DNA from: Myxococcus xanthus
GTDB taxonomy: Bacteria; Myxococcota; Myxococcia; Myxococcales; Myxococcaceae
Reading direction: 5' to 3'
Length of the DNA: 64,000 bases
NCBI RefSeq assembly: GCF_900106535.1
Contig: NZ_FNOH01000007.1
Coordinates: 124,001-188,000, forward strand
Position 1 is the stretch's first letter; every line of letters starts with the position of its first letter. The notes below the pieces were generated by a model that was given only the letters and a program-made list of their open reading frames with translations, had not been told where the DNA came from and made no database searches. Made by a program: the position numbers and the translations under genes. Of the stretch, positions 2,718-31,818 are shown in pieces.

Positions 2718-3683
2718 TCAGGCGGGCACGGGCATGCGCAGCCCGGCGAGCTTGCGGTCCGTGAGGATGGAGTGGACCTGTGTGATTCGCCCGTCCGCCC
2801 CCAGCTCCACGCGGACCACCATCTGGGTGCCCGCCTGCGGGTCGCGCTGGGGCGGAGGAAACACGGCCACCACCGCCGGCAGGCCGTTGAGCATCCGCAG
2901 CTCCACGGCGGAGGGCGCCCCCCGCATCTCCATCAGCCGCCGGTAGAGCAGCAGCACGCGCGACTGTCCCAGCACCGGCACGCGCGCGGCGCGGTACTGG
3001 CCACCGCCGTCCGACAGCGCGCACACGTCGCTGGCGAGCAGCGCCTCCGCCGCCGCCACGTCCCCCGTCAGCAGCGCACCCAGGAAGCCCTCCAGCGCGG
3101 CGCGGGCGCGCGCTTGGAACTCCCGCGTCGGCAGGCAGCGGGCGCGGTCGTACGCCGCCATCGCCGCCCGCGCGCGGTGGTGCACCACCTTCACGTTGGA
3201 CTCGCGCAGGTTCAGCGCCTCGGCCACCTCGCGCACCGAGTAGTCGAACACGTCGCGCAGGAGCAGCACCGCCCGCTGCTTGGGAGACAGCACCTCCAGC
3301 GCGAGCAGGAAGGCGAAGGAGACACTCTCCAGCAGCGCGTAGCGACCCTCCGTGGAGCCGCCTCCCGGCAGCCGCGCCTCCACGCCAGGGGGCGGCAGCT
3401 CCTCCTCTCCCGTGTCCAGCGGCGAGGGCAGCCAGGGGCCCACGTAGCCCTCGCGCTTGCGCCGCCGCAACGTGTCCCGGGCCAGGTTCACCGCCACCCG
3501 CGTCAGCCAGGGGCGCAGCGCCTCCGTTCGCGCGGGCGGCGAGGCCAGGGCGCGCACGAAGGTCTCCTGCACCAGGTCCTCCGCGTCCGCCGACACGCCC
3601 GTCATGCGGTAGCAGAGCCCCCACAGGAAGCGCTCGTGCTCGCGCACGGCCTGCGCCAGTCCTTCGCGCGCGGAGCGGTCCAT
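2718..3683 (-). CDS. ECF sigma factor of the ECF41 type with SnoaL-like C-terminal domain
   Basis: A 321-residue RNA polymerase sigma factor. The sigma-2 region is near residues 10-75 (DAEDLVQETFVRAL) and sigma-4 near 130-185 (LSPKQRAVLLLRDVFDYSVREVAEAL). A long C-terminal SnoaL-like domain follows. Two hallmarks of the ECF41 group are visible: a GPWLPSPL motif between the sigma domains (family motif WLPEP) and SDGGGQ in the C-terminal extension (family motif DGGGK). In ECF41 proteins the extension, rather than a separate anti-sigma factor, controls activity. It starts three bases after the stop of the upstream flavoprotein gene, so the two form one operon. ECF41 genes are typically linked to carboxymuconolactone decarboxylase, oxidoreductase or epimerase genes; here the partner is an oxidoreductase. 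Confidence 0.9.
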   Translation of the reverse strand: MDRSAREGLAQAVREHERFLWGLCYRMTGVSADAEDLVQETFVRALASPPARTEALRPWLTRVAVNLARDTLRRRKREGYVGPWLPSPLDTGEEELPPPGVEARLPGGGSTEGRYALLESVSFAFLLALEVLSPKQRAVLLLRDVFDYSVREVAEALNLRESNVKVVHHRARAAMAAYDRARCLPTREFQARARAALEGFLGALLTGDVAAAEALLASDVCALSDGGGQYRAARVPVLGQSRVLLLYRRLMEMRGAPSAVELRMLNGLPAVVAVFPPPQRDPQAGTQMVVRVELGADGRITQVHSILTDRKLAGLRMPVPA

Positions 3684-3686
3684 GCG

Positions 3687-4982
3687 TCAGCGCCCCACTG
3701 CCCGGCGTGACGCCACCTGCTGGCCCGGGACGAGCGCGCGCGCCACCGACTCCGCGCTGGCGAAGGACGCCTCCGCGAGCAAGCCCTCCGGCCCCACCCA
3801 ATCTCCCACGCGGTACAACCCAGGCACGTGCGGCACCTCCACCGAGGGGCGTCCGCGCAGGCCGCCCGTCTCCGCCGTCGGCAGCCAGTGCGACACCAGC
3901 AGGGAGGGCCGGTAACGGCGCGCCACCACGGACGTCCGCCAACCGGGTTGCAGCGCATCCATCACTTCCTCCAAGCGGGCCTCGCTCGCCTCCGGGCCCC
4001 TGCCGCCCAGGTATTGCATCACATGCACCATCGCGCCGCCTTCCGGCGCCAGCTTCGCCACCGCGGAGTGCACCGACGCGTACCAGGGGCCATCAGTCCC
4101 GAGCGCGAACAGCGCGTCCGGACGGGGCAACCGGGACAGCCCCAGCTCCAGCGTGGCCGCCATCACCGGCACGGCGCGGGCCGCGTCGTGCGCCAGGAGC
4201 GCGTCAGCGGGCAGCAGCGCCGCGATGTCACCCGGCCCGCCCGCCACCACCACCGCGTCCGCCGCGTGCTCCGTCCCATCCGCGAGCCGCACGCCACGAA
4301 CGCGCGCACCCGTATCCGCTAGCAGGACCGCGCTCACGCGCGCGGAGAGCTCCAGCCGTGTGCCCGCATCGCGCGCGCGGGTCTCCAACTCGGAGACAAG
4401 CGTGCTCCACCCGCCGTCCACGTAGAGCACCGCCGGCTTCGCCTGGAGCTGGGCGACGGCGGACTGGGCGCTCATCGCGTCCACGTCCGCGCAGTAGGTC
4501 ATCACCCGCACCAGCGCCAGGATGAAGGCGCGGGCGTCCGCGTTCGACAGGTGCTGCTCCACCCAGTCGCGCGTGGTGATGTTCGCCAGCGGCGCCAGGT
4601 CCACGCGTCCCAGCCCCGCGAGCAGCTTCGCGAGCTCCAGCTTCCCCGGCAGTCCGAGCGCGTCCGTGGTCAGCAGGGAGACCAGCCCGCGCGGCATCGT
4701 GTGCAGGCGTCCGCCACTCAGCAGATACGAGCCCGCGCCGGGCATGCCACCCGCGGGCTTCACGCCCAGCTCGCCAAGCACTCGCATCCCCGCGCCCCCC
4801 TGGTACAGCGCGTGAGCGCCGAGGTTGAAGCGGAAGCCCTCCACGTCCGACGTCTGTCCCCGGCCTCCCAGGTGCTTCGAGCGCTCGAAGAGCGTCACCG
4901 CGCAACCGCCCCGTGCCAGCAGCGCCGCCGCCGACAGGCCTCCCAGCCCTCCACCGATGACCGCCACTCGAGGTGCCTTCAT
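3687..4982 (-). CDS. FAD-dependent oxidoreductase of the phytoene desaturase/amine oxidase type
   Basis: A 431-residue flavoprotein. The start at 4982 gives MKAPRVAVIGGGLGGLSAAALLARGG, placing the dinucleotide-binding GxGxxG fold immediately at the N-terminus; the frame is open 14 codons further but without similarity. Further family marks are FERSKHLGGRGQT after the Rossmann motif, the segment FRFNLGAHALY, and a C-terminal FAD contact (VPGLYRVGDWVGPEGLLAEASFASAE). The substrate is unknown; homologues act on carotenoids and other polyenes. It is the first gene of an operon with the ECF41 sigma factor and is probably its target, as in other ECF41 loci. Confidence 0.8.
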   Translation of the reverse strand: MKAPRVAVIGGGLGGLSAAALLARGGCAVTLFERSKHLGGRGQTSDVEGFRFNLGAHALYQGGAGMRVLGELGVKPAGGMPGAGSYLLSGGRLHTMPRGLVSLLTTDALGLPGKLELAKLLAGLGRVDLAPLANITTRDWVEQHLSNADARAFILALVRVMTYCADVDAMSAQSAVAQLQAKPAVLYVDGGWSTLVSELETRARDAGTRLELSARVSAVLLADTGARVRGVRLADGTEHAADAVVVAGGPGDIAALLPADALLAHDAARAVPVMAATLELGLSRLPRPDALFALGTDGPWYASVHSAVAKLAPEGGAMVHVMQYLGGRGPEASEARLEEVMDALQPGWRTSVVARRYRPSLLVSHWLPTAETGGLRGRPSVEVPHVPGLYRVGDWVGPEGLLAEASFASAESVARALVPGQQVASRRAVGR

Positions 4983-25988: not shown

Positions 25989-27503
25989 ATGCGTCTTCGC
26001 GCACAAAGCCTTCCTTTGCTGTTGTCCGCCGTTTCAGGCATCGCCACCCTCGGATGCGGCATCGAAGCACCCTACCCGGTTCGCCTGGAGCACGGGGAGG
26101 TGGAAGCCGCCGCCAGCCGTGAAGACACCGCGCGCCTGGGTGCGGCCTCCGGCTGGGACCTGTGCGACACGACGGCCCGGCTCGTGCGGGACATCATCCC
26201 GGGCGCGGGGCACTCCCATCCGCAGGACCTCACCCACGGCAACGAGGTCCTCCTCTTCTCCGCCACGGATGGCGTGGGGGGCCGTGAGCCCTGGCTGAGT
26301 TCGGGCGTGGCTCCGGGTACGCATCCGCTACTGGACGTGTACTCAGGAGGCCCGGGCTCGGACGCGGGCCCCTTCCTCCAGTGCGGGACGACGACGTACT
26401 TCGCGGCGAATGATGGAGTGCATGGCCGCGAACTCTGGAAGACGGATGGCAGCACCGAAGGCACGGAGCTGGTGAAGGACATCTCGCCGGGAGGGCTGGG
26501 CTCGGACCCGGAGCACCTGACCTTCTACGACGGCGTGCTGTACTTCACGGCGAATGATGGTGTGCATGGCCGCGAGCTGTGGCGCAGCGACGGCACGGAG
26601 GAGGGAACCTTCCTCTTGCGTGACTTCAGCACGGAGGGAAACCTGGTCTCCAGCCACTTCGAGCTGGTGGCGGGGACGAACGCCCTCTACATCAAGGTGA
26701 ACATCTTCTCACCGACCGACCGCCAGTCGAGCCGGGTGCAACTGTACCGGACCGATGGCGCCAGCTTCGTGCGGCTGGTGGATGGGTCGGAAGAAAACAT
26801 GCTGGGCGACCTGACGCCGGTGGGGGACAAGCTGTTCTTCACCTGGAACTTCGATGCGCCGCAGACGCGGCTCTACGTCACCAACGGCACGTCGAGCTGG
26901 GCGCGTTACGTATACACGTTCATCGGCGCCCCCCTGGGGATGGTCGCTTACAAGAACAAGCTCTTCCTGAGCGCGGCGACTGGAGCCGGGGGGGTGGACT
27001 TCGAGCTGTGGCGCAGCGACGGAACGACATCCGGCACGATGCGGGTGAAGGACATCTACCCAGGCAGGGTGCCGTCGCAGCCGACGAACCTCACGGTGGT
27101 GAAGGACCGGCTCTTCTTCGTCGCGGATGACGGGGTGCACGGCCGCGAGCTGTGGAGCAGCGACGGGACGAGCGCGGGGACGCGGCTGCACGCCGACATC
27201 GCCGTGGGCGCTCTGGGCTCGGAGCCCGCGGAGCTGACGGCCGTGGAGGAGTACCTCTTCTTCAGCGCCCACACGGAGGCCGGAGGCCGGGAGGCGTGGG
27301 TGAGCGACACCCGCGAGCCGGGGGTGTTCGAGGTGCAGGGCATCGCGCCGGGGTCCATGCACTCGGACCCGAGCAACTTCGTTCGCTCGGGGTGGGACCT
27401 CTACTTCGTCGCCAGCGACAGCACCGACTACGGCCGCGAACTGCGCGCGCTGCGCATCCGGCCGGCGGGCATGTGTGACATGAGCGGCAACGACGGGCTC
27501 TGA
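25989..27503 (+). CDS. ELWxxDGT-repeat lipoprotein
   Basis: A 504-residue protein with a signal peptide ending in a lipobox (SGIATLGC). The body consists of about seven repeats of 45-60 residues carrying variants of the ELWxxDGTxxGT motif: RELWKTDGSTEGT, RELWRSDGTEEGT, FELWRSDGTTSGT, RELWSSDGTSAGT. Between them recur LYFTANDGVHG-like blocks. This repeat family probably forms a beta-propeller-like surface structure and is common in myxobacteria; the role is unknown, with adhesion or ligand binding most often suggested. The start is the ATG at 25989 following AAGGAG-like purines; the open frame before it lies in the divergent promoter region. Confidence 0.85.
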   Translation: MRLRAQSLPLLLSAVSGIATLGCGIEAPYPVRLEHGEVEAAASREDTARLGAASGWDLCDTTARLVRDIIPGAGHSHPQDLTHGNEVLLFSATDGVGGREPWLSSGVAPGTHPLLDVYSGGPGSDAGPFLQCGTTTYFAANDGVHGRELWKTDGSTEGTELVKDISPGGLGSDPEHLTFYDGVLYFTANDGVHGRELWRSDGTEEGTFLLRDFSTEGNLVSSHFELVAGTNALYIKVNIFSPTDRQSSRVQLYRTDGASFVRLVDGSEENMLGDLTPVGDKLFFTWNFDAPQTRLYVTNGTSSWARYVYTFIGAPLGMVAYKNKLFLSAATGAGGVDFELWRSDGTTSGTMRVKDIYPGRVPSQPTNLTVVKDRLFFVADDGVHGRELWSSDGTSAGTRLHADIAVGALGSEPAELTAVEEYLFFSAHTEAGGREAWVSDTREPGVFEVQGIAPGSMHSDPSNFVRSGWDLYFVASDSTDYGRELRALRIRPAGMCDMSGNDGL

Positions 27504-27599
27504 GCGGCAGGCGCCAGGTCCCTTCTTCAAATCCAGGCCCGCTCCGAGAAAGCCACGGCACTGGACATTGCCCCCGGCGGCCCACTACGTGCGCCGGGC

Positions 27600-28319
27600 A
27601 TGAGCATGAACTGTCCGCACCGGTCCGCCTGGACGGAGCGCACCTCCGGCTGGCGGCGATGGGACCGGGAAACGGGCAGGATTGCCGGTGGGGCAGTGCT
27701 GGCGCTGGCACTGAGCTGCTCCAGCAATCTGCGGCACTCTCAGGAGACCGAGTCCTACGGGTTCATGAGCATCGACTCTGGCTATGTCTGGGCCAGGGGT
27801 CCGTGGCCCGAAGTCCAGGCTTCGAGCGACCCGGACGAGGTCATCGACCAGCTCTGTCCGGCCATCATGCGTCTGGACAGGGCCACCGCCAGGGACTTCG
27901 GACAGGAGTACTGCGGCGTCATCTACTCGCGGGGGGATGGCATCTACCGCACCACGCATCCCTCACCGCTGGGAGAGCCTCAGTTGCGCGGTGAGACGAA
28001 GCAGAAGTCCTGCTTCCCGGTCCGCCGCGTCGTCGACCCAGAGGCCCGGGTCACACCGATTCTCGCAGACTTCCACAGCCACCCCTGGTTCCCCTCGCCG
28101 CTGTCCCAACAGGACAAGATGGCGGCCAACCAGCTCTACTTCTTGAAGATCCAGTTTGATTCGGCCTGCCAGATCCAGAAGATCATCCCCTACCTGGACA
28201 GGCCCGATGCGCCCGGCGAGGTCTACTCCCGGCGAGGGAAACGCTGGGTCCTCATTGGAATCATCAAGCCGAGCAACAAGGCCGCAGGCATCGTGACCCC
28301 CGTTGGCGGGCTGGACTGA
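27600..28319 (+). CDS. Predicted lipoprotein with a complete JAMM (JAB1/MPN) metalloprotease motif
   Basis: A 239-residue protein. A hydrophobic stretch (GGAVLALALSC) ends in a lipobox cysteine at residue 40, after an unusually long polar leader. The C-terminal domain carries FHSHPWFPSPLSQQD, which fits the JAMM consensus H-x-H-x10-D exactly (His159, His161, Asp172), with a candidate upstream Glu103 in GQEYCGVIY. Such domains are zinc isopeptidases or deconjugases, normally cytoplasmic; a lipidated extracytoplasmic form is unusual. The gene is followed after 12 bases by a second lipoprotein gene and forms an operon with it. A start further in is possible, because 30 residues precede the hydrophobic core. 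Confidence 0.75.
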   Translation: MSMNCPHRSAWTERTSGWRRWDRETGRIAGGAVLALALSCSSNLRHSQETESYGFMSIDSGYVWARGPWPEVQASSDPDEVIDQLCPAIMRLDRATARDFGQEYCGVIYSRGDGIYRTTHPSPLGEPQLRGETKQKSCFPVRRVVDPEARVTPILADFHSHPWFPSPLSQQDKMAANQLYFLKIQFDSACQIQKIIPYLDRPDAPGEVYSRRGKRWVLIGIIKPSNKAAGIVTPVGGLD

Positions 28320-28331
28320 GCAGGAGACTTC

Positions 28332-28751
28332 ATGACCCGGTGGCTGCCGTTCCTCGTCCTGGCACTTCCCGCATGCGCGCTCTTCCAGCGCCCGCCACGC
28401 CCTGTCCACGCGCCACCGGAAGAAGCTGCTCGTTTCGAATTTCCCCCCACGGGCATTCCCGAAGAAGGGCTGCGCAGCATTCCAGGAGACATGGCGCGAG
28501 CCATCCAGCTCGCCATGGAGGACTTCTATCCCTGGGACAAGAAGGCGCCGACCCCGTCTCACCCCGGCAGGGAGTGCCTGTACCGGCGCGAGTCGTACGA
28601 CGTCTACGCGGCCCCCTACCAGGAGGGCGTCGTCCTGGTCGGCATCGTCCTGTCGCCCCAGGCCTGCGGCGCCCAGGCGGTCCCCAACGACATGGGCGCG
28701 CTCTATGCCGTCGACACGCGAGGTTGGCGCATCCTCGCCGTGCAACACTAA
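28332..28751 (+). CDS. Small lipoprotein paired with the JAMM protein
   Basis: A 139-residue predicted lipoprotein. MTRWLPFLVLALPAC is a short signal peptide ending in a lipobox (L-P-A-C, Cys15), followed by a Pro-rich linker and a compact domain. That domain holds ECLYRRESYDVYA, VVLVGIVLSPQACGA and a tail GALYAVDTRGWRILAV. A further two cysteines could form a disulfide. There is an AGGAGA ribosome site. No family is recognised. Being 12 bases after the JAMM gene, it is probably its partner: a substrate, inhibitor or co-factor. Confidence 0.7.
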   Translation: MTRWLPFLVLALPACALFQRPPRPVHAPPEEAARFEFPPTGIPEEGLRSIPGDMARAIQLAMEDFYPWDKKAPTPSHPGRECLYRRESYDVYAAPYQEGVVLVGIVLSPQACGAQAVPNDMGALYAVDTRGWRILAVQH

Positions 28752-29115
28752 ACGCCTGCCCGCCCTCGGCGCAGCCGGCCCCAGGGGCAACCGGGACGGC
28801 GTTGGCCCCCTTCCCTTCCTGGCGCCGGGTGCCCACATCGGAGAACTGTCGAGTGGCAGGGGGCACCAGGAGCCGGCTGGTGTCCCCTTTTTTCGTGCTC
28901 CCAGAGCGGCCGTCCGTCCTTCGAATTGTACGCCTCCGTGCATTTCTCCCCGCCTCCAGCGTCGTCTTGGGCAGAACTGTCATGCTGCTGTCCCGCTGCG
29001 GGCTGGCGCGTCTGACGCGTGCGGACGAGCCTGGGCTGGGCTAAGCGTCTGCCTGCCCGTCGGGTACCGCACAGGCCGGCGCCTGCGGCCCGCTCGCTGG
29101 AGGAGGTTTCAAGCG
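28752..29115. other. Intergenic region, 364 bases, before the AsmA gene
   Basis: It contains the terminator at 28859-28893. The rest must hold the promoter of the AsmA-family gene, whose frame is artificially open back to 28705. No operator or RNA element is recognisable; GC is similar to the surroundings. Confidence 0.4.
28859..28893 (+). terminator. Strong Rho-independent terminator after the JAMM/lipoprotein operon
   Basis: GGGGGCACCAG (28859-28869) pairs with CTGGTGTCCCC (28877-28887) over eleven positions with one G-U pair, with a seven-base loop and six T residues directly after. It lies 108 bases past the stop at 28751. Confidence 0.9.
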
Positions 29116-31818
29116 ATGTCCGACACCGTGGTGAAGAAGAAGCGCCGTTGGCCCTATGTCCTTGGAGGAGTCTTCGCGCTCCTCGTCATCATCGTGGCCG
29201 TGGCGCTCTGGCGACTGGACGCCATCCTGCTGAAGACGGCTCGCGACCAGGCGGCCACCTATTCCCAGCTCCTGGGACGTCCCATCGAAATCGGGGACAT
29301 CTCCACCAAGCTCTTCCCCACCATTGGCGCCCAGGTGGAGAACGTCACCGTCGGCCCCGCCGAAGGGGAAGACCTGCCGCTGGCCCAACTGGCCCTGATT
29401 GACGTCCGCGTCGCCGCGGGCCCGCTCCTGTCCTCCAGCGGCAAGGACATCCAGGTGAAGAACGCCGAGGTCTCCGGCCTCACCGTCAACCTGGTCCGCT
29501 TCGCCGACGGCACCACCAACGTGCAGCGCCTGCTCCAGCGGCTGGAAGAACAGCAGCCCAAGGAAGAGGAGGCTCCCGCTGAAGAGTCCCAGCCCATGGA
29601 CCTCTCCGGTGTCCACGTGGAGCGCGCGGCCCTCACCGACGGCGCCATCCGCTTCGTGGACCGCGGCGCCGGAGAACAGGCCCGCGAGCTGGGCGTGAAG
29701 GACCTGGACATCGAGGTGAAGGACCTCCGCGTGGGCAAGCCGCTGGTGGTGAACCTGGCCGCCGCCGTGCTCGCGGACACCCAGAACCTCCAGGTGTCCC
29801 TCCACGCCGCGCCGCTGCCGGCCACGCTGGTCCCCACGCCCGAGCGCGTGACGCTGAAGGCGCAGAAAATCGACCTCGCCCCGCTGGGCCCCTTCCTGCC
29901 GCCGGACATCGGCCTGCGTGCGGGCACGCTGGACGCGGACTGGCAGGCGGACCTGGGCGGCGCCGTTCCCGGCGGCCAGGGCCCCACGAAGCTGGTGGGC
30001 ATCATCAAGGCCCTGGGCCTGAGCTTCACCGGCTCCGAGGGCGGCAAGGCGCTGGACGTCGTCATGGACACCGACGTCGCGGGCGACATCAACACCGGTG
30101 ACCTGGCGCTCAACAAGCTGAAGGTGGACCTGGGCCCCGCGAGCCTCACCGGCAAGGGCAGCGTGAAGGGCCTGCTCACGGACAAGCCCGCGGTGGAGGG
30201 CTTCGAGCTGACGGGCCGCAACCTGGACCCGGCCGTGCTCGCCGAGTACTACCCGCCGCTGCGCAAGCAGCTCAACGGGATGATTGCCGGTCCCATCGGC
30301 CTGGACGTGCGCGGCAGCGGCACGCAGGACGCCCAGGCCATCGACGTCAACGTGGACCTGACGCCCGTGCGGCTGCGCGTTCCGGCCCAGCTCACCAAGG
30401 ACGCGGGCGGCGCGATGAAGCTCTCCGCGCGGGTCTCCGGCGCGGCGGCCACGGGCGGCGCCCTGCGCTTCGACGCGAAGGCGGACCTGGGCGGCATCGA
30501 CCTGCGGCCCGGCCTGCTGGTGGACAAGGCCCCGGGCCAGCGGATGGACCTGAGCGCCGCGGGCACCTACGCGCCCGGCAAGGGCTCCGGCATGAAGGTG
30601 GACATCCCCAAGCTCACCGCGAACGTGCTCGAGGACACGATGACGGGCAGCGCGTCCTTCGCGCTCGCGGGTACGGGGAAGAAGCAGACGACGACGTTCT
30701 CCGCGGACCTCAAGAGCCAGAAGCTGGACGCGGACGCGCTGATGATGAGCGAGGAGGAAGTCCAGGCGCGCGGCGGACCGCCGCCGGAGGAGCCGCCGTC
30801 GGATGACCCGACGCGCTTCAACGGCTACCGGGGCGACATCCGCTTCGCGGTGGGCACGCTGCGCTACATGGAGATGAACATGACCCAGGTGACGGGCGTG
30901 GTGAAGATGACCGACGACCTCATCACCGTGGAGAAGTTCTCCACGGGCGTCTACGGCGGACGCATCGTCGCGGACGGCACCACGATGCGCCTGGGCCCGC
31001 TGCCGGAGCAGCGCCCCTTCGAGGCGAAGGTGAAGGTGGAGGGCGTCGCGGTGGAGCAGGCGCTGACGCAATTCACGCCGCAGAAGGCCGTGACGGGCAA
31101 GTTCAACGGCAACGTGGACGTGAAGGGTGTGGGCTACACGCCCGACCAGCTCAAGCAGACGCTGCTCGGCGGCATCAACGGCGACCTGCTGGATGGCGAA
31201 CTGCTGGGCAAGGACCTGGTGGCCTCGGTGTCCGAGCCGCTCGCCAAGGCGCTGCCCATCGCGGCCAAGGGCCTGAAGAACGAGCAAGTGACGAAGCTGG
31301 GCGGTGACCTGCCCTTCAGCGTTCAAATCAAGGACGGCGTGGCCCAGCTCTCCAAGCCGCTGACGTGGGCGCGGCCGGAGGCGGAGCTGAGCTTCGACGG
31401 CGGCATCCGGCTGGATGGCTCGCTGGACCTGACGGGCTCCGTGTCGCTGACGCCGTCCACGGTGAAGACGCTGACGCTGGGCAAGGTGACGCCGCCGGCC
31501 GCCATCCCCGTGGGCCTGAAGCTGACAGGCCCCGCGTGGAAGCCGGAGGTCACCAGCCTGGACGTGAAGCCTGCGGTGGCGCAAATCGCGAAGCTGGCGG
31601 CCTCGTCGCTGGCGGGCAACCTGATTGGCGGCGAGCGCGGCCAGCAGGTCCAGAGCATCATCGAAGGCGGCGAGGACAAGCTTCGCGCCGAAGCCGAAGC
31701 CAAGCGCAAGGAGCTGGAGGCCAAGGCCGCCGAGGAGAAGGCGCGCCTGGAGGCCGAGGCCAAGAAGCGCGCCGAGGAAGAAGCGAAGAAGCGCCTGCGC
31801 GGCCTCTTCGGGAAGTAG
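29116..31818 (+). CDS. AsmA-family inner-membrane/periplasmic protein
   Basis: A 900-residue protein. The start at 29116 has GGAGGAGG about ten bases upstream and gives a short basic tail followed by one membrane anchor (WPYVLGGVFALLVIIVAVAL); the frame is open further upstream without meaning. The rest is periplasmic. An AsmA N-terminal domain is recognised from the segment LLGRPIEIGDISTKLFP, and a C-terminal AsmA domain from TGKFNGNVDVKGVGYTPDQL and LLDGELLGKDL. AsmA proteins are thought to bridge membranes and move phospholipids. The last 50 residues are a charged Ala/Glu/Lys coiled coil, unusual for the family. Single-gene unit. Confidence 0.85.
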   Translation: MSDTVVKKKRRWPYVLGGVFALLVIIVAVALWRLDAILLKTARDQAATYSQLLGRPIEIGDISTKLFPTIGAQVENVTVGPAEGEDLPLAQLALIDVRVAAGPLLSSSGKDIQVKNAEVSGLTVNLVRFADGTTNVQRLLQRLEEQQPKEEEAPAEESQPMDLSGVHVERAALTDGAIRFVDRGAGEQARELGVKDLDIEVKDLRVGKPLVVNLAAAVLADTQNLQVSLHAAPLPATLVPTPERVTLKAQKIDLAPLGPFLPPDIGLRAGTLDADWQADLGGAVPGGQGPTKLVGIIKALGLSFTGSEGGKALDVVMDTDVAGDINTGDLALNKLKVDLGPASLTGKGSVKGLLTDKPAVEGFELTGRNLDPAVLAEYYPPLRKQLNGMIAGPIGLDVRGSGTQDAQAIDVNVDLTPVRLRVPAQLTKDAGGAMKLSARVSGAAATGGALRFDAKADLGGIDLRPGLLVDKAPGQRMDLSAAGTYAPGKGSGMKVDIPKLTANVLEDTMTGSASFALAGTGKKQTTTFSADLKSQKLDADALMMSEEEVQARGGPPPEEPPSDDPTRFNGYRGDIRFAVGTLRYMEMNMTQVTGVVKMTDDLITVEKFSTGVYGGRIVADGTTMRLGPLPEQRPFEAKVKVEGVAVEQALTQFTPQKAVTGKFNGNVDVKGVGYTPDQLKQTLLGGINGDLLDGELLGKDLVASVSEPLAKALPIAAKGLKNEQVTKLGGDLPFSVQIKDGVAQLSKPLTWARPEAELSFDGGIRLDGSLDLTGSVSLTPSTVKTLTLGKVTPPAAIPVGLKLTGPAWKPEVTSLDVKPAVAQIAKLAASSLAGNLIGGERGQQVQSIIEGGEDKLRAEAEAKRKELEAKAAEEKARLEAEAKKRAEEEAKKRLRGLFGK

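Follow-up and report, generated by a model that had tools for sequence, protein, structure and literature searches.

JAB domains that serve as toxins and are encoded beside immunity genes were described by Zhang et al. 2012 (PMC3482391). The excerpted sections of that survey place Tox-JAB in large polymorphic toxins (RHS, T6SS, T7SS and others), propose a nuclease function for it, and describe Imm65, the partner of Tox-JAB-1, as the sole lipoprotein in the set of immunity families. Two genes of Myxococcus xanthus, found in a window of 64,000 nucleotides (the whole stretch of DNA that was analysed), resemble Tox-JAB-2 (DUF4329) and Tox-JAB-1 with their partners Imm-NTF2-2 and Imm65, as far as the same excerpts describe them (PMC3482391), in the E, H[ST]H, S and D residues of the JAB/JAMM motif and in the neighbouring (here putative) immunity gene. 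Like Imm65 in these sections, the partner encoded in the window is a predicted lipoprotein, and its model, loosely NTF2/cystatin-like, can be set beside Imm-NTF2-2. Unlike Tox-JAB, the JAMM domain described here makes up a predicted lipoprotein of its own, in which Cys residues are conserved, and its partner has no sequence match to a known immunity family.

The second closest system is SitA/SitI, whose likeness, according to the available parts of PMC5562445 and PMC8546572, lies in a lipoprotein effector, an immunity gene downstream of it, a multiplicity of loci and traA-bearing hosts. The same parts attribute to SitA an escort domain of ~375 aa and nuclease carboxyl termini acting in the cytoplasm, and state that the immunity proteins are not transferred. 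In contrast, the window encodes a single small JAMM domain without the ~375-aa amino-terminal escort domain, and its partner is a lipoprotein. Gut Bacteroidales are described in PMC12247911 as carrying orphan immunity genes that confer protection from neighbours.

The JAMM/MPN+ (M67) peptidases PfJAMM1, AF2198, AMSH and Cap3 share motif and fold with the window protein. To our knowledge, the enzymes known in this class work in the cytoplasm on ubiquitin-like tails. A cytoplasmic action of prokaryotic JAB domains on such tails is also stated in the excerpted text of PMC3482391. The window protein, by contrast, is predicted to be exported and lipidated, and has four additional conserved Cys. The colicin M immunity protein Cmi and the T6SS immunity protein Tai3 are small immunity proteins whose folds weakly resemble that modelled for the partner (Z 4.5 and 4.7, values of common arrangements); the entry title of Cmi mentions a disulfide, and no sequence relation of either protein to the partner was found. 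A stand-alone lipidated JAMM-partner pair was not found described in the openly licensed literature searched, and the word JAB is absent from the accessible portions of a review of myxobacterial killing (PMC10433427) and of PMC12077131. Toxins with JAB domains are known, as is one family of lipoprotein immunity proteins. The pair in the window is one copy of a cassette multiplied in social myxobacteria and has the look of an as yet unrecognised system of weapon and antidote, not of a housekeeping enzyme. Its features in the window are the following.

27600..28319, plus strand: open reading frame of the JAMM-domain lipoprotein (239 aa), a probable effector or toxin, with a match to Prok-JAB and a model (pLDDT 88) of JAMM/MPN fold.
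27717..27719, plus strand: predicted lipidation site, the lipobox Cys at residue 40 (77/77 relatives).
27855..28169, plus strand: four conserved Cys (C86, C105, C138 and C190), presumed to form disulfides (each 77/77).
27906..27908, plus strand: catalytic Glu E103 of the JAMM motif (77/77 relatives).
28074..28115, plus strand: predicted zinc site H159-S-H161-P-x6-S169-x2-D172, conserved in the alignment of 77.
28332..28751, plus strand: open reading frame of the partner lipoprotein (139 aa), a probable immunity protein or inhibitor, with lipobox C15, C82 and C112 (model pLDDT 89).

The H-x-H-x10-D signature and the upstream Glu of the original prediction are complete in the window protein (E103, H159-S-H161 and D172), as is Ser169, which had gone unmentioned. 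Variation of the motif residues among orthologues, which had been named as an argument against the assignment, is virtually absent: E103, H159 and D172 are each found in 77/77 sequences, H161 in 76/77, and position 169 is Ser or Thr in all 77, as are the four Cys invariant. This alignment comprises the window protein and 76 of 79 non-redundant sequences, leaving aside the duplicate of the window protein and two tandem second copies devoid of the motif. The motif is more than a chance occurrence because its residues are conserved across the 77 relatives. It is likewise intact in 99 of 103 full-length JAMM frames, a count which includes the two motif-less tandem copies; the four exceptions amount to three distinct genes, one with H161P that was fetched twice and two degenerate second copies that follow a normal pair. 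Note that these second JAMM-like lipoproteins, located 3' of the pair at L100 (G079:C4) and L101 (G062:C301), have lost both the Glu and the HxH motif; they are presumably inactive and perhaps act as decoy or regulator.

Profile matches are weak for the window protein itself, which scores 20.9 bits with Pfam Prok-JAB (E=3.5e-4; curated cut-off 25) and 14.5 bits with DUF4329/Tox-JAB-2 (curated cut-off 28.6). At E<=0.1, Prok-JAB is matched by 49/77 JAMM relatives (best 1.3e-6) and DUF4329 by 18/77 (best 1.8e-4). The AlphaFold model, called for as a check of the motif, has a pLDDT of 88 and displays a JAMM/MPN fold; the mature protein of ~200 aa consists of one JAMM domain. Foldseek gave a top E of 0.013, with no hit at E<=0.001 and its top ranks filled by JAMM/MPN entries. 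The best VIA-align match is PfJAMM1 (Z 7.5, rmsd 3.5 over 112 residues), Cap3 reaches Z 6.7, and all entries among the 50 matches listed are of JAMM/MPN type except one RadC. The window protein is thus assigned to the JAMM/MPN class by homology and modelled fold, with a predicted peptidase activity.

The JAMM protein and its partner are very probably exported lipoproteins, because their lipobox Cys is invariant (77/77 JAMM proteins and 69/69 partners) and further Cys are conserved; on the same grounds the claim of an extracytoplasmic, lipidated JAMM protein with a lipoprotein partner is upheld as a prediction. Gly, Ala or Ser precedes the lipobox Cys in 76/77 JAMM proteins, while the strict textbook pattern is fitted by just 22/77 of them and by 19/69 partners. 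The signal peptide of the window protein has an unusually long n-region that places the Cys at residue 40 (~14-28 in most relatives) and carries Ala at position -3 of the lipobox; taken alone, the lipobox of this copy is weaker than that of the family. In M. xanthus, a Lys at position +2 is linked to inner-membrane retention of lipoproteins, according to the available sections of PMC3222651, and an Ala at +7 is a mark of matrix lipoproteins. The +2 Lys is absent from all 77 JAMM proteins and all 69 partners, and the +7 Ala occurs in 8/77 and 6/69, respectively. The window protein reads Cys-Ser-Ser-Asn-Leu-Arg-His and has neither residue, as expected of a SitA-like lipobox. Because the +2 Lys is missing in both families, most JAMM and partner proteins are predicted to reach the outer membrane.

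The dedicated small lipoprotein gene expected 12 bases downstream was found there, on the same strand. In the partner alignment (the window partner and 68 of 85 sequences, after removal of the duplicate and of 16 rows that were tandem copies, longer or from a distant subfamily), lipobox C15, C82 and C112 are invariant in 69/69. Searches with Pfam and NCBIfam profiles assigned the partner to no family. None of the 69 partners matched an immunity family at a meaningful score; NCBIfam gave one weak match, with a putative immunity lipoprotein of T6SS (E 0.23). In the model (pLDDT 89), a helix is packed against four strands in a cystatin-like arrangement. Foldseek returned nothing at E<=0.001 for it; VIA-align neighbours (Z 4.5-7.7) are designed cystatins, of which one gives the best value of 7.7, PepSY-type domains, cystatin, NTF2 proteins, Tai3 and Cmi. 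The cystatin/NTF2-like likeness of the modelled partner is a suggestive hint, its Z values being within the range of common arrangements.

The two genes lie between neighbours that do not belong to the unit. The locus is organised as follows.

25989..27503, plus strand: upstream flank gene coding an ELWxxDGT repeat protein (NCBIfam TIGR04534, E=1e-106), outside the unit and kept in strains without the cassette.
27516..28752, plus strand: accessory cassette delimited by flank alignments, absent in G066, G076, G075, G063 and, with approximately the same limits, in G060.
28858..28888, plus strand: terminator-like hairpin followed by a T run, 3' of the pair (1 found versus 0.7 expected in shuffled sequences).
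29116..31818, plus strand: downstream flank gene, an open reading frame for a large protein, which we take to be AsmA-like, outside the unit; its first 400 residues were found in 8/8 relatives searched.

Flank alignments with relatives end at 27515 (27477 for G060 and 27523 for G075) and restart at 28749-28753, and only a few bases of microhomology are seen by eye at the junction. The hairpin sits in the flank that cassette-less strains keep. The pair is present at this position in two of eight relatives (G077 and G078), the partner alone is found in G067, and neither gene is found in the other five, which lack both as one block (in G060 with nearly the same limits). The pair is an accessory cassette. 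The G067 locus has a deletion of ~330 bases that removes the whole active site of the JAMM protein, with the partner kept.

The genome of the window (G000) codes seven JAMM and seven partner genes, 7/7 paired, in seven places with different neighbours. A search in other Myxococcota, as suggested by the original prediction, revealed matches to the JAMM profile in 62/195 genomes and to the partner profile in the same 62. All belong to the Myxococcaceae, the family of the window's own species, and cover 8 of its 26 genera; the number of JAMM copies per pair-bearing genome ranges from 1 to 26 and varies between species. A scan of GTDB genomes gave 68 loci, all from Myxococcaceae according to their titles apart from records labelled Comamonas. 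These records, titled Comamonas sp. KCTC 72670 (BNCN01; L180, L188, L210, L225, L236 and L237), coincide with G067, which is placed in the genus of the window, and their label looks wrong. None of 72,556 plasmid and 50,697 phage records matched the JAMM protein, and no integrase was noticed beside the seven loci of G000 (genes called by a home-made program and read by eye); cargo of a mobile element or phage was rejected on these grounds. A role in anti-phage defence, considered since JAMM proteins occur in CBASS-type systems, was also discarded: PADLOC had no match to either protein, and both are predicted to be exported.

The two genes are linked in one direction. The partner is directly 3' of the JAMM gene at 30/30 best loci and at 68/68 further loci (a few fetched twice), with a median gap of 14 bases in 106 pairs, 25 of which overlap (start codons chosen by script). 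Tandem partners, present at 11/105 loci, resemble stacked immunity genes. In a census of 11 genomes, every intact JAMM gene is accompanied by an intact partner (49/49), as is every JAMM gene broken by stops, frameshifts or fragmentation (12/12), and one more JAMM fragment lies beside an intact partner. A further 30 partner matches have no JAMM gene, 19 of them full-length and free of stops (although a wider profile suggests a frameshift in one of these, G014:C123) and 11 fragmented or carrying stops. Overall, the partner alone is intact at ~31 loci, many of which are one locus in several strains and are therefore not independent, and the JAMM gene alone is intact at none. Four weak JAMM matches lacked a partner at threshold; three (G066:C234, G015:C9 and G014:C46) have a divergent partner detected with the wider profile (E 2e-4 to 5e-4) and the fourth (G075:C686) is a JAMM fragment of 33 residues. 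Beyond the flanks of known loci, no other lipoprotein effector or recurrent gene was seen upstream of orphan partners in 15 of the 40 orphan loci. Polymorphic swapping, by which a different effector would precede the orphan partner, was discarded for lack of a candidate at these 15 of the 40 orphan loci listed.

Partners without a functional JAMM gene are, by their substitution patterns, under purifying selection. The partner of G000 compared to that of G067, whose JAMM gene is dead, has a dN/dS of 0.08 (the JAMM value, meaningless past the deletion as the frame was carried over, was not used), and intact pairs at the window locus display 0.07-0.11 for the partner and 0.13-0.21 for the JAMM gene. 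By comparison, the flanking ELWxxDGT-repeat gene (25989-27503) has a relatively high dN/dS of 0.32-0.47 among close relatives. Seven relatives carry a partner without a JAMM gene at the C1:333 locus. Pairwise dN/dS of these partners is mostly 0.12-0.23, with higher values of 0.35-0.58 in four close pairs (two of them 0.54 and 0.58) that rest on few differences. G000 is nested among the seven JAMM-less genomes, and the JAMM gene may have been gained there by G000 rather than lost elsewhere. The partner is also found alone at C1:391 (G066 and G076) and at C12:150 (G076). Ratios are low in both genes, with no sign of diversifying selection. Note that at L060 (G058:C14, ~3010-4704 on the partner-oriented strand) an orphan partner lies near a macro-domain protein and its neighbour, which presumably form a DarTG toxin-antitoxin pair.

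The pair is probably a cassette of effector and immunity genes (toxin and antidote) that operates in the cell envelope. The JAMM lipoprotein would be anchored in the envelope, facing the periplasm or the surface, and if unrestrained would damage an envelope component of its carrier cell. The cystatin/NTF2-like partner would be sorted to the same compartment to bind and block the JAMM domain, so that cells carrying the cassette or the partner alone would be protected while contact would harm related cells that lack the partner. The scheme infers the protease activity and toxicity of the first protein, its neutralisation by the second, and the route and target. It is favoured because the partner is kept with or without the JAMM gene, an intact JAMM gene is never found without the partner, the two products have the same predicted compartment, and partners are sometimes in tandem. 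The copy number, the patchy distribution of the cassette and the existence of orphan partners suggest antagonism between relatives. Several observations weigh against it, namely the low dN/dS of both genes, with diversifying selection not seen, the lack of both an escort domain and a modular carboxyl terminus, and the possible gain of the JAMM gene by G000 at C1:333. Furthermore, not every orphan was kept, as seen from the fragmented or stopped partners (11/30 of those without JAMM) and the one that looks frameshifted. JAMM enzymes cut isopeptide bonds, and peptidoglycan cross-links or lipoprotein tethers would be conceivable targets in the envelope.

A housekeeping or social envelope protease, regulated by a dedicated lipoprotein inhibitor that keeps a value of its own by acting on the cell's paralogous JAMM proteins as well, is an unlikely alternative that accounts for the low dN/dS and the cystatin-like model of the partner; the 1-26 paralogues per genome could share inhibitors. 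At a fixed locus, however, the pair is present in some close relatives and absent from others, copy number varies between species, and 12 JAMM genes are broken beside 49 intact ones, all of which is unusual for a needed enzyme. The absence of intact JAMM genes without partner and the gain and loss of the cassette would also be explained by a self-maintaining, toxin-antitoxin-style cassette of the envelope that is not delivered between cells, whose linkage is kept since loss of the partner harms the cell. This is improbable, as selection on orphan partners at loci without a JAMM gene calls for JAMM protein from outside or from a paralogue, and addiction alone is insufficient to explain why they are retained.

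The original prediction regarded the partner as inhibitor or substrate of the JAMM protein. The inhibitor is favoured, because purifying selection acts on the partner even at loci with a broken or missing JAMM gene, and no locus showed the opposite; this and the one-way linkage speak against the substrate. That the partner is processed by the JAMM protein, or is a chaperone for its folding, would agree with tight linkage and a shared predicted compartment, but is very improbable given that there is no obvious reason for its conservation without JAMM, as beside the dead JAMM gene of G067. Host genera are predatory myxobacteria, a life style which would suit a surface protease directed at prey with a partner that protects the producer, but this proposal can be nearly dismissed, since orphan partners in relatives fit defence against relatives rather than prey and no evidence for secretion beyond the envelope was obtained; no result presented here supported the suggested processing of surface proteins or prey-directed activity.

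For the effector-immunity cassette, outer membrane exchange by TraAB is tentatively considered the likeliest delivery route. G000 carries TraA (1135 bits) and TraB (1018 bits). TraA scores above cut-off in 62/195 genomes, to which G019 with a TraA cut short is added, and the amino-terminal region of the G000 TraA is matched by 63/195. TraA and the pair coincide in 61 genomes, with the pair only in G024 and TraA only in G004 and G007. The overlap fits an exchange of lipoproteins like that of SitA (PMC5562445, PMC8546572); it is weak evidence because it is confounded by common ancestry, both traits marking one clade. An argument against this route is that, with both proteins predicted in the outer membrane, the toxin and its antidote would be passed on together, whereas SitI is not transferred. 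Delivery might alternatively occur by type VI secretion or through surface contact. Besides the full TraA, a second, shorter TraA-like gene, which comprises the amino-terminal half only and matches NF033759 (~400-460 bits), was observed in several genomes, as follows.

G000:C9:5549-6583: shorter TraA-like frame, with similar frames in G066, G076, G077, G078, G060 and G067.

A rather unlikely extension of the effector-immunity reading is that the pair represents a further, as yet unrecognised class of contact-delivered, escort-less lipoprotein toxins of social myxobacteria that act in the envelope. JAMM protein and antidote would be swapped together by outer membrane exchange, and a recipient lacking the gene would be harmed once the antidote runs out, a cell-to-cell form of plasmid addiction. 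If so, the 1-26 copies per genome would account for much of the kin-recognition barcode. If the effector-immunity reading is true, up to 26 loci per genome would be added to myxobacterial kin discrimination, and the pair would provide a small enzyme-inhibitor system to ask which envelope bond is cut by a JAMM enzyme.
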